From: Pyrinomonadaceae bacterium
Lineage (GTDB): Bacteria; Acidobacteriota; Blastocatellia; Pyrinomonadales; Pyrinomonadaceae
DNA: 33,534 nt
Direction: 5' to 3'
NCBI GenBank assembly: GCA_023717605.1
Contig: JAMQPH010000451.1
Location: 1 to 33,534 of the forward strand
The notes beneath the pieces were generated by a model that searched no databases, was not told where the DNA came from, and saw nothing but the letters and a program-made list of their open reading frames with translations. Positions 200 to 15,098 of the stretch are shown in pieces (positions within the stretch are counted from its first letter, which is position 1; each line of letters begins with the position of its first letter). A program made the translations under genes and the position numbers.

Positions 200-247
200 G
201 AGGCCAGCTCAAGCCCGCTACTTGCAGGTTAGGTAGGGCCGGAATTA

Positions 248-354
248 TTAGCCGCGGATACACGCGGATTAGCGCGGATCTGAAACAGCAACAAGCAAAC
301 CGATTGGAATAGTCTTTTCATGATCCGCGTTCATCCGCGTAGATCCGCGGCTAA
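248..354. repeat. Inverted repeat of 10-bp CGCGGAT units, 'hollow' copy
   Basis: The left arm (248-284) reads TTAGCCGCGGAT and then repeats CGCGGAT-type units every 10 bases. The right arm (322-354) is its reverse complement with a few mismatches and ends CCGCGGCTAA. Only about 37 bases separate the arms, with no room for a gene. The same arms enclose the GxxExxY gene at 13135-13734. The element lies between two converging genes and would form a strong hairpin in RNA from either side, so a secondary terminator role is possible. No clear target-site duplication is visible. Confidence 0.85.
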
Positions 355-375
355 AAATTCGGTGAAAGTGGACAA

Positions 376-11662: not shown

Positions 11663-13132
11663 ATGCAACTACCAGCAACACTGGGCGAACTGAAAGCAAG
11701 CGGTTACAAGCGCTCCTCGGTAAAAGATGAGCTGCGCGCGAACCTCATCAAGAAACTGCGGGCAGGCGAAACGCTCTTTCCAGGAATCGTTGGCTACAGC
11801 GAGACCGTTATTCCACAGCTCGTAAATGCGATCCTCGCCCGACACAACATCATCCTGCTGGGTCTGCGCGGCCAGGCCAAGAGTCGCATTATTCGGCAAC
11901 TAACCGAGTTGCTTGATGAACGCATTCCGGTGATCGCCGGCTCTGAAGTAAACGACGACCCCTTCCAACCTATTTCTGCTTATGGTCGCGGGCAGCTTGA
12001 ACTCCACGGCGATCAATTACACATCGCCTGGGCCAATCGCGATCAACGATTCGTTGAGAAGCTCGCGACACCGGACGTAACTATTGCCGACATTATTGGC
12101 GACGTCGATCCAATCAAAGCCGCCAAAGGCGGACACCTGTTGAGCGACGAGCTGACGATTCACTATGGGCTGCTGCCTCGCGCTAATCGGGGTATCTTCG
12201 CGATTAATGAGCTTCCGGATCTGGCCGGCAAAATTCAAGTCGGTCTCTTCAACATCATGCAGGAAGGCGACGTGCAGATTAAGGGTTACCCGGTCAGGCT
12301 ACCACTCGATGTTATGCTTATTTTTTCTGCCAACCCGGAGGACTACACTGCGCGAGGGAAGATCATCACGCCGTTAAAGGATCGCATCGGTGCTGAAATC
12401 ACCACTCACTACCCTGCGGAGTTGCCAACCGCGATCCAGATCACGCGCCAGGAAGCGTGGGTGGAGCGGGACGGATTGAAGGAACGCCTGCACATCCCCG
12501 AGTTTTTGCGAGAAGTAGTCGAACAAATCGCCTTCGAAGCTCGCGACGACCAGAGGGTCGACAAACACTCTGGTGTCTCACAACGTCTGCCCATTACGGT
12601 TATCGAATCAGTAATCTCAAATGCCGAGCGGCGTGCGCTCCTGACCGGCGAAGATAAGATTGTGCCTCGCGTATCCGATGTCTATGCGGCAATTCCTTCC
12701 ATGACCGGCAAAATGGAACTTGAATACGAGGGTGAACAGATTGGCGCGACCCGCATCGCCAAGGATTTGATCAAACGCGCGGCCGGCGAGATCTTTGAAG
12801 GCTATTTCGTGGGCATCGATTTCGCCCGCACTGTGCAATGGTTTGACGAGGGAAACAACCTGCGCCTGGCGGACACGGCTTCGGCAGAGGAATGCAGAAG
12901 GCTGCTCGACTCGGTCCCAGACTTGATCGAAACCTCGCTCATTCCATTTGACTTCAAAAAGTCGGACCAGGCGCAGCTAGTCGCCGCCTGTGAGTTTGTA
13001 CTTGAAGGCCTATATGCTGGTAACAAGATCAGCCGTAACGAAGAAGGCGGCTACACGGCGGTTACGAAGGCGAAGAAAGATCGCCGCGGCATGATTTATG
13101 ATGACCTCACGGAGACTAGCAAATACAGCTGA
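11663..13132 (+). CDS. MoxR/ChlI-type AAA+ ATPase
   Basis: The 489-residue protein carries an AAA+ core of the magnesium-chelatase ChlI/MoxR type. Walker A is a GLRGQAKS variant (G67-S74). Walker B is GIFAINE (N182-E183, Asn in place of the usual Asp). The sensor region is LIFSANPEDYTARGKI, and LKDRIGAEI carries a likely Arg finger. A large C-terminal helical part follows. Such ATPases work with a VWA-domain partner to remodel or load metal into other proteins; the gene at 13764 encodes that partner. The two would normally be adjacent, but a repeat-bounded GxxExxY gene stands between them. The true substrate is unknown. Start: ATG 11663 with AGGT about 10 bases upstream. Confidence 0.88.
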   Translation: MQLPATLGELKASGYKRSSVKDELRANLIKKLRAGETLFPGIVGYSETVIPQLVNAILARHNIILLGLRGQAKSRIIRQLTELLDERIPVIAGSEVNDDPFQPISAYGRGQLELHGDQLHIAWANRDQRFVEKLATPDVTIADIIGDVDPIKAAKGGHLLSDELTIHYGLLPRANRGIFAINELPDLAGKIQVGLFNIMQEGDVQIKGYPVRLPLDVMLIFSANPEDYTARGKIITPLKDRIGAEITTHYPAELPTAIQITRQEAWVERDGLKERLHIPEFLREVVEQIAFEARDDQRVDKHSGVSQRLPITVIESVISNAERRALLTGEDKIVPRVSDVYAAIPSMTGKMELEYEGEQIGATRIAKDLIKRAAGEIFEGYFVGIDFARTVQWFDEGNNLRLADTASAEECRRLLDSVPDLIETSLIPFDFKKSDQAQLVAACEFVLEGLYAGNKISRNEEGGYTAVTKAKKDRRGMIYDDLTETSKYS

Positions 13133-13134
13133 TT

Positions 13135-13734
13135 TAGCCGCGGATTAACGCGGAGAAACGCGGATCTGAAAAACGCAAGAAAAGAAAAGCAATCCTCATC
13201 AATTGCGAAGGAGTCCTCACATGAAGAGCGAAAGTGCGCTGAAGCATCAAGAGCTTACACAGAAAGTTATCGGAGTGTTCTTTGAGGTTTACAATGAACT
13301 TAGTCATGGGTTCCTAGAGTCTGTGTATCAAAAATCGTTTGAGCTTGCTCTTAGGTCAAAAGGCCTGAGGGTTTTTAGAAAGATAGAAGTTCCGGTTTGG
13401 TTTCGCGGACATCAGGTAGGTGAATTCGAAGCGGACATTCTGGTTGAGAAGTGCCTCTTACTGGAATTGAAAGCAGTTCGCGCCCTAGACTCTGCACATA
13501 TGGCGCAGTTGTTAAATTATCTTCGAGCTACCGAGATTGAAGTCGGGTTATTGTTCAACTTCGGTATTAAGCCAGATTTTAAGAGAGTGGCATTTGATAA
13601 CACGCGAAAGCATAACTGTCAGCGGACCAACCTATTGGATGCGATGCTGAAAGCTGATAAACGGGACGATTAGTTTCTCATATTGTTCTTCTTGTTCCTT
13701 CTGATTCGCGTTAATCCGCGTTCATCCGCGGCTA
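13135..13734. mobile_element. Inverted-repeat unit enclosing the GxxExxY gene (proposed)
   Basis: The left arm (13135-13167) begins TTAGCCGCGGATTAACGCGG, with CGCGGA units every 10 bases. The right arm (13703-13734) is inverted and ends CCGCGGCTA. Arm similarity appears to continue inward as a purine-rich left and pyrimidine-rich right flank. Between them lies only the GxxExxY gene. The same arms occur without a gene at 248-354. There is no transposase. Calling this mobile is inference from the full/hollow pair and from its position splitting the AAA+/VWA pair. Confidence 0.55.
13221..13673 (+). CDS. GxxExxY protein (PD-(D/E)XK-like)
   Basis: The 150-residue protein shows the family's naming motif at G30-F-L-E33-S-V-Y36 (HGFLESVYQKSF). 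A nuclease-like core follows: D72 (FEADILVEK) and E82-L-K84 (LLELKAV). Then come MAQLLNYLRAT and VGLLFNFG, all diagnostic of the GxxExxY/PDDEXK_3 family. The fold predicts metal-dependent nuclease chemistry, but no activity is established that I know of. Start: AAGGAG seven bases before the ATG at 13221 is the best ribosome site in the area. The gene is enclosed by inverted repeats and separates the AAA+ ATPase from its VWA partner. It is probably a passenger rather than a component of that system. Confidence 0.9.
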   Translation: MKSESALKHQELTQKVIGVFFEVYNELSHGFLESVYQKSFELALRSKGLRVFRKIEVPVWFRGHQVGEFEADILVEKCLLLELKAVRALDSAHMAQLLNYLRATEIEVGLLFNFGIKPDFKRVAFDNTRKHNCQRTNLLDAMLKADKRDD

Positions 13735-13763
13735 GTTTTGATTTCCGTCGCTAGTTTTGGTTT

Positions 13764-15098
13764 ATGAAGTTCACTCGGTACTCAAAATTTAAAGGCCTAG
13801 ACGTCTCATCCATTAACCTGGGCGACCTGATGGAGGGACTCTCTGATTCACTACTCTCTTCCGGCTACGACGACGACTACTATTGGACCAGTGAACGCCG
13901 CCCGCAAGACACCTCTTTGGATGCGCTGCGGCAAGCACTGCTGCAAGCGCTGATGGACCAGGGCCTGCTCGATGAACATCAGGTTCAGGAGATGCTCGCT
14001 GACAATGACGGAAAATTTAAAGGCTCGGCGCTGGAAGAGATGCTCAACCAACTAATCGAGCGGTTAATTGAAGAAGGTTACCTGACCCTTCACGAAGAGC
14101 AGGTTAGACAACAACAGCAGCAACGAGGGAACGGCAATCCGGAAATCTCCGAACCCCTCCCGCGCAACATCAAGTTTGAAGTAACCGAGAAGGGGTTGGA
14201 TTTTCTGGGTTACAAGACCCTGAGAAACTTGCTGGGAAGCCTTGGGAAGAGCTCTGTCGGTCGTCATGACACTCCACAGCTCTCCACCGGCGTGGAAGCC
14301 GCCGCGGCCAGCAAAGCCTATGAGTTTGGCGACACGATCAACCTTGACGTGAACACCACTTTGTTATCAGCGATTCAGCGCGAAGGTTTGCAGGTGCCGC
14401 TTAATCTTGAGTACAGCGACTTGCATGTCCATCAGTGCGACTACCAATCATCTTGCGCGACTGTGGTAATGCTTGACTGTTCGCATTCCATGATTCTTTA
14501 TGGCGAAGATCGGTTCACCCCGGCCAAGAAGGTTGCCCTGGCGCTGGCCCATTTGATTCGTACACAGTACCCGGGCGACGCTCTCAAACTCGTGCTCTTC
14601 CACGACAGTGCCGAGGAGTTGCCACTGGCAAAACTGGCCACCACGCAGGTTGGGCCGTACCACACCAACACCGCTGAAGGTCTGCGACTCTCGCGACGAA
14701 TTCTGCAGTCGCAGCGGAAAGAGATGAAGCAGATCGTCATGGTTACCGACGGAAAACCGACTGCTTGTTTTCTCGAAGGCAATTCATCGTTCAGCGGATC
14801 TTCGCTGCGTTCTACAAAGGCGCCGGCAATTCCGTCGTCGCCAGGGCGCCGGCTTTACAAAAACTCGATGGGTGGCGATCCCTTTGTAATGGATCAGACG
14901 TTCAAGGAGGTCCAGGCCTGCCGCAAGGCCGGTATAATGATCAATACGTTCATGCTGGCAAGCGACTATTATCTCGTTGAGTTCGTAAAGCAGATGACCG
15001 CAATGACAAACGGTAAAGCCTACTTCGCAAACCCAGGCAATCTGTCGCAATTTGTCTTGATGGATTTTCTTCGGCGAAGAACCAGCCGTGTTCGCTAA
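13764..15098 (+). CDS. VWA-domain protein, partner of the AAA+ ATPase
   Basis: The 444-residue protein has a helical N-terminal region of about 230 residues, including a Gln-rich linker (VRQQQQQRG). A von Willebrand A domain follows. The metal-ion-dependent adhesion site is intact: D238-C-S240-H-S242, a Thr in NTAEGLRLS and Asp in MVTDGKPT. There is no signal peptide or membrane segment, so it acts in the cytoplasm. By analogy with ChlD/CoxE-type proteins it should bind the AAA+ ring encoded at 11663. No clear Shine-Dalgarno precedes the ATG. The inverted-repeat right arm ends 29 bases upstream, so its native leader may have been disrupted by the GxxExxY unit. Confidence 0.88.

Follow-up and report, generated by a model that had tools for sequence, protein, structure and literature searches.

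GxxExxY genes between inverted repeat arms: a candidate mobile unit with a predicted PD-(D/E)XK nuclease

Introduction

Several described systems combine short inverted repeats with a small protein gene. In the REPIN/RAYT system, short inverted doublets are dispersed over the genome, form hairpins and make up a non-autonomous population that is accompanied by a dedicated repeat-associated protein gene (PMC3116915). A second case is the intervening sequence (IVS) of the Coxiella burnetii 23S rRNA, where a hairpin contains a small ORF, the S23p gene, directly preceded by heptamers in tandem, and where a mobile element has been suspected; RNase III excises this sequence (PMC4990558). MITEs and classical IS elements likewise show short inverted termini, gene-free derivatives, and presence or absence at orthologous sites. 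Among proteins, nucleases of the RecB/Cas4-like PD-(D/E)XK type are expected to carry the residue set E-D-ExK-QxxxY.

The GxxExxY family resembles each of these and is identical to none. The GxxExxY unit appears to work like REPIN/RAYT without belonging to that system, since the protein superfamily differs: the RAYT protein is a Y1 HUH transposase (TnpA_REP), whereas GxxExxY is a PD-(D/E)XK protein matching PF13366 and TIGR04256 only. Its arms, unlike REPIN doublets, are built from tandem units of 9-10 nt, about three in each arm. At three quarters of the loci the gene sits inside the arms, and members of the family occur in many phyla and in archaea. With the IVS it shares the small ORF inside a hairpin and the tandem short repeats at the ORF edge, but S23p is a four-helix bundle with 7-nt units located in rRNA, while the GxxExxY units examined closely lie between protein genes. 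With Cas4, RecB and lambda-exonuclease nucleases it has the predicted fold and the residue set in common. Cas4, however, has four Fe-S cysteines and CRISPR neighbours; GxxExxY has arms of its own, no cysteine among its invariant or near-invariant columns, and no Cas gene recognisable by reading among the ORFs of the locus studied here. In contrast to MITEs and classical IS elements, no DDE transposase was found inside the units and no target-site duplication was detected.

Across the full text of 5.39 million open papers, GxxExxY was found mentioned only twice, both times in passing, and no link of GxxExxY or TIGR02436 with such arms was found in a search of mainly open journal articles. We suggest, with moderate confidence, that the GxxExxY unit is a widespread mobile element made of inverted arms and a single gene for a Cas4/RecB-like PD-(D/E)XK nuclease that would act on these arms.

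Materials and Methods

The window, i.e., the whole stretch of 33,534 nucleotides analysed here, is contig 104 of a Pyrinomonadaceae genome (G000), a 7.38-Mb draft metagenome-assembled genome (MAG) with 909 contigs and 5.3% contamination. The survey drew on 169 GxxExxY loci, taken both from relatives within the class and from GTDB genomes that cover many phyla; many of the genomes are draft MAGs as well. Flanking sequence was sufficient for 167 of these loci. The 350 nt upstream were aligned with the reverse-complemented 350 nt downstream, and loci with a score of at least 18 were called armed. A reversed, non-complemented version served as control.

Results and Discussion

A Single Gene between Inverted Arms

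A sequence-only reading had proposed that a 600-bp unit at 13135-13734 consists of inverted arms of roughly 10-bp CGCGGAT repeats around a lone GxxExxY gene with a good ribosome site of its own. This was confirmed (Table 1). The arm positions given there, 13135-13167 and 13703-13734, were essentially correct; inverted-repeat detection refined them to 36 nt each, 86% complementary and 528 nt apart. Each arm comprises three CGCGGATnnn units of about 10 nt at a spacing of 10 nt. The only gene enclosed matches TIGR04256 (1.6e-35, 122 bits versus a cut-off of 35) and PF13366 (PDDEXK_3; 4.5e-37, 127 bits versus a cut-off of 22). No transposase lies within 13135-13734. The claim that gene and arms form one unit is supported.

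Table 1. Positions of the features discussed in the text, in window coordinates.
Feature	Position	Strand	Description	Basis
Gene-free hairpin of the window arm family	242..360	.	Arms 242-280 and 322-360	Inverted-repeat detection, arm scan, fold
MoxR-like AAA ATPase gene	11663..13132	+	Upstream; left anchor	Ortholog comparison
Left arm	13135..13170	+	TAGC CGCGGAT TAA CGCGGAG AAA CGCGGAT CTGAA; three 10-nt units	Inverted-repeat detection, arm scan
Ribosome-binding site	13208..13213	+	AAGGAG, 7 nt 5' of the ATG	Direct sequence reading
GxxExxY gene	13221..13673	+	ATG start, 150 aa, predicted PD-(D/E)XK nuclease; E33, D72, E82xK84, Q96xxxY100	Profiles, AF2
Right arm	13699..13734	-	Inverted copy of the left arm	Inverted-repeat detection
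VWA-domain-like gene	13764..15098	+	Downstream; right anchor	Ortholog comparison

The whole window has no match in Rfam. Just beyond the right arm, a small tandem duplication of TCCGCGGCTAGTTTTG occupies 13725-13759 and is missing in the related genome G001. The contig start (1-198) is a repeated C-terminal coding segment with many matches across the genomes of the genus, at about 70-100% identity.

Arms Accompany the GxxExxY Family

Inverted arms are found far beyond this locus. They flank 126 of the 167 GxxExxY loci, as opposed to 3 of 167 in the control; split by sample, 73 of 92 loci in the relatives and 53 of 75 in the genomes of many phyla are armed. When the windows were shifted within these loci, 3 of 198 reached the threshold, and among ParE genes from the same relatives none of 30 did. 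Most arms hold about three units, and a period of 9-10 nt was the best lag in 91 out of 124 cases. Unit length ranges from 8 to 11 nt, mostly 9-10 nt, with CRCRGAK as the common form and GCGGAT, CGCGGA, CACAGA, CACGGA and CGCAGA as common 6-mers. A 26-nt three-unit pattern has 405 matches (0 in the control) in 24 genomes and occurs in all of them, including Luteimonas, Anaerolineales, Phycisphaerales and the archaeal Methanosarcinales; these genomes were picked for holding GxxExxY loci, nearly all armed, and the count therefore measures dispersal, not association. Across 59 relatives, CGCGGAT/CACGGAT matches are more frequent in GxxExxY-bearing genomes than in those without the gene (p = 0.008), an excess that is not significant outside the genus of the window (p = 0.18), with only two arm types counted. 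We consider the family-wide association with inverted arms well supported.

Chance or an assembly artefact might be suspected, given the draft state and contamination of the window genome. The reversed-pattern controls exclude this explanation, with no match against 405 here and none against 110 in G000 (see below). In named isolate genomes, moreover, five of seven GxxExxY loci score 23-47 and the other two 14 and 16; Luteimonas terricola BZ92r (L188) and Granulicella rosea DSM 18704 (L202) are examples of isolates with armed genes. We assign it a negligible probability.

Gene-Free Hairpins Are Dispersed in the Window Genome

The sequence-only reading had noted the arms without a gene at 248-354, and had suggested a search of the host genome for further copies. 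The gene-free copy of the window is the hairpin at 242-360, whose arms are 87% complementary with 41 nt between them; its computed folding energy as single-stranded DNA is -40.6 kcal/mol, compared with -16.7 for shuffled sequences (z -9.2). Genome-wide, CGCGGATNNNCGCGGA has 54 + 56 = 110 matches in 7.38 Mb versus 0 + 0 for the reversed pattern, so the arm pattern is not due to chance. The arm consensus, read from the arm scan at about 40 of these 110 places, is close to TTAGCCGCGGATTTACGCGGATGAACGCGGATCTGA.

The scan found 24 convergent CGCGGAT pairs in G000, nearly all 48-135 nt apart. The window pair (566 nt) is the only one with a GxxExxY gene, so that the CGCGGAT arm family taken alone is mostly gene-free. 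At the family level, arms are associated with GxxExxY genes beyond this locus, contrary to the outcome that would have refuted the sequence-only reading; drawn narrowly around this one arm sequence in G000, the tie concerns a single hairpin. No DDE or other transposase was seen between the CGCGGAT arms of this genome, a draft MAG in which repeats may be collapsed.

G000 holds two further intact GxxExxY genes and one that is truncated or interrupted. Both intact genes (on contigs C233 and C506) lie between hairpins of like design and other sequence, with units of the types ACAGGATnnn and CACGAAnnn, and dispersed copies lacking a gene occur in G000 for both arm types. Some of those of the C233 type match the C233 hairpin at 92-98% identity. 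These findings point to the armed layout as a feature of the family at large rather than of one repeat.

In G000, the two arms of one hairpin resemble each other at the unit positions no more than arms of different hairpins do, and at the spacers only a little more. This favours sequence recognition over a constraint from pairing alone. A pairing constraint may act as well, since a perfect palindromic arm pair exists in G001 (locus L424, described below).

A Predicted Nuclease under Purifying Selection

A PD-(D/E)XK-like core had been proposed for the protein, in good agreement with our results. E33, D72, E82, K84, Q96 and Y100 are kept in 164-168 of 168 GxxExxY sequences, and the AF2 model (pLDDT 91) has a restriction-endonuclease-like fold. 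The best structure match in the PDB is the Cas4 protein SSO0001 (Foldseek 4.8e-4; Z 9.1, 4.6 A over 103 residues), followed by lambda-type exonucleases and Hjc. The fold class is thus supported by a model with moderate structural scores, and nuclease activity is a prediction. A profile search of PDB sequences gave no meaningful match, and PADLOC returned only weak Cas4/PDC matches with no family fitting well. The gene is under purifying selection, with dN/dS of 0.11 for the window gene versus G001 and 0.05-0.10 for the C506 gene.

Orthologous Sites Are Occupied, Scarred or Empty

We followed the suggestion to compare orthologous loci for empty sites. Occupancy varies at the window site and at C506. 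G000, G001 and G007 carry the unit at C506. From G009 and G010 it has gone, leaving short arm-like scars, and G014 and G006 show no trace of it.

The left anchor of the window site, the AAA ATPase gene, is matched in 51 of 59 relatives, the closest ones being 95-96% identical. The gap between the two anchors (13133-13763) is a variable site within the genus. G000 and G001 hold the CGCGGAT-armed unit. In G006, a related gene extends into its CACAGAT/CACGGAT arms, so that these code for parts of both the N- and the C-terminus. G002 shows nested units (locus L139, G002:C169): an outer left CGCGGAT arm is followed by an inner, CACAGAT-armed GxxExxY gene of the G006 type, and a tandem second GxxExxY copy has an internal deletion. 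The window copy is not canonical, in that its CGCGGAT arms lie outside the position of the inner CACAGAT-type pair of G002 and G006. The AAA gene fragment of G002 is 95% identical to that of the window despite the G006-type GxxExxY gene beside it; gene relationships therefore differ from flank relationships. The gap is taken by a GAGCGGTAGCGACC hairpin in G009 and G010, and by a GCCGATTGCCAATT hairpin in G003, G008 and G012. Further members of the genus have other genes there, some of them toxin-antitoxin-like, or hardly any gap at all. For the solo hairpin at 242-360 no clean empty site was found; G007 has both flanks with unrelated DNA between them, a comparison of little information. Presence/absence behaviour and mobility of the units are well supported.

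Two other explanations bear on this point. The unit might act at the RNA level, its arms pairing in the transcript and its protein binding or processing its own mRNA in an autoregulatory or IVS-like manner, with no DNA mobility of its own. The strong fold of the gene-free copy (computed with DNA parameters) is in line with this, as is the C. burnetii IVS, whose S23p gene behind heptamers and excision by RNase III (PMC4990558) correspond to the layout of the TIGR02436 units treated below. Presence and absence at orthologous sites, scars and the nearly identical dispersed hairpins, however, need a process at the DNA level, and the predicted fold is closest to DNA nucleases. We consider the RNA-level explanation improbable.

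Alternatively, the nuclease might damage genomes that lose the unit, with the arms protecting or regulating, as in restriction-modification or toxin-antitoxin systems. Such selfish retention would fit the strong purifying selection and the nuclease fold, but there is neither an antitoxin nor a methylase between the arms. With one gene in the window unit, and survey distances from arm to core that leave little room for a second, no toxin-antitoxin partner was found. In G009 and G010, moreover, loss of the C506 unit left nothing but short scars, and PADLOC offers no good family match. This explanation appears highly improbable to us, and we return to the mobile element as the preferred reading.

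Ends and Copy Behaviour

Flank comparison of solo hairpins and GxxExxY units revealed no target-site duplication. Direct flank matches average 2.46 at solo hairpins compared with 2.34 after shuffling; the small excess at GxxExxY units (2.19 versus 1.64) is probably due to palindromic flanks. The inverted repeat continues for 4-13 nt outside the first unit into locus-specific sequence, with z-scores of 8.1 and 5.2 for armed genes and 2.6 and 2.0 for gene-free hairpins. The lack of target-site duplications together with the locus-specific palindromic extension suggests joining through hairpin or replication intermediates, or insertion at small palindromes, and not staggered cutting of the DDE type.

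In genomes with several copies, only 2 of 72 GxxExxY copies are most closely related to another copy of their own genome, and the gene thus rarely proliferates inside one genome. In the best recent within-genome pair (L074/L098 in G055), the match stops exactly at the right arm and runs about 110 nt past the left arm. Phages gave no GxxExxY match, and the eight matching plasmid records are all below 60% identity; spread by plasmids or phages is hence not evident. The best explanation is that the gene mostly moves between genomes, or descends, singly, while gene-free hairpins multiply within a genome.

A perfect CGCGGAT arm pair encloses an unrelated small gene in G001 (L424, 497-1047), and arms can thus also move or arise when no nuclease gene lies between them. 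By eye, this gene is SMI1/KNR4-like, a possible cargo.

Arms Follow the Protein

The closer two core proteins are in sequence, the more similar are their arms (Mantel rho 0.46; permutation maximum 0.14); with arms anchored at the first unit, rho is 0.55 (permutation maximum 0.25). The flank from -60 to -10 outside the first unit gives a rho of 0.00, and even protein pairs of 60-80% identity show no more than background identity in the flanks until about 4 nt from the first unit. This covariation delimits a unit with its edge at the arms. Like the intact catalytic residues, it bears only indirectly on binding, cutting or movement; descent of the whole unit would give the same covariation.

A comparable layout was found for genes of a different fold. 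TIGR02436 (S23/bAvd-type four-helix-bundle) has 15 matches in G000, and 26 of 29 TIGR02436 loci in relatives (L238-L267) have flanking inverted arms of tandem units with a clear 7-nt period. This second family strengthens the case for the armed arrangement as such and, its genes not being nucleases, shows that hairpin-armed units can also do with another kind of protein. TIGR02436 units may have given rise to heptamer repeats like those of the C. burnetii IVS, and perhaps to the TAACTGA (PMC4679880) or cyanobacterial heptamers.

This brings up the most serious competitor, in which the arms belong to hairpins that owe their spread to the host (template switching, hairpin repair) or to a different transposase acting in trans. 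GxxExxY would then be a passenger, kept by selection for an unrelated function. The arms around the unrelated gene of G001, the layout common to four-helix-bundle genes, the lack of target-site duplications and the rarity of multiplication within a genome all agree with it. It is at odds with the armed state of three quarters of the GxxExxY loci across phyla when ParE genes have no arms, with arm sequences that follow the protein when the outer flanks do not, and with a unit length specific to each family (9-10 nt for GxxExxY, 7 nt for TIGR02436). We regard the passenger explanation as unlikely.

A Possible Mechanism

Under the preferred reading, that of a mobile element, the GxxExxY protein would bind the repeat units of its own arms and nick or cut at the arm or hairpin. 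Such cutting would move or retain the unit, and in trans also the gene-free hairpins as its non-autonomous derivatives. Joining might proceed via a hairpin or replication intermediate, or by insertion into existing small palindromes. It is likely that the nuclease recognises the arms, and plausible that it drives the movement of the units.

A further-reaching proposal can be made only tentatively, as we believe it somewhat less probable than its opposite. It holds that the units form an unrecognised transposon class of bacteria and archaea, in which a Cas4/RecB-like nuclease recognises 9-10-nt units and moves its own unit and many gene-free hairpins. This would be one of at least two such families, next to the four-helix-bundle units with their 7-nt repeats.

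Conclusions

TIGR04256 is a named NCBI family, and arms that track the protein give it a testable function. GxxExxY units offer a source for the hairpins of the CGCGGAT, CACAGAG and ACAGGAT types that environmental genomes, many of them, contain in scattered form. Given their heptamer arms, the similarity to S23-type genes would join intervening sequences, heptamer repeats and GxxExxY hairpins as one kind of element. If true, the reading as a new transposon class would also explain some of the long-known heptamer repeats.
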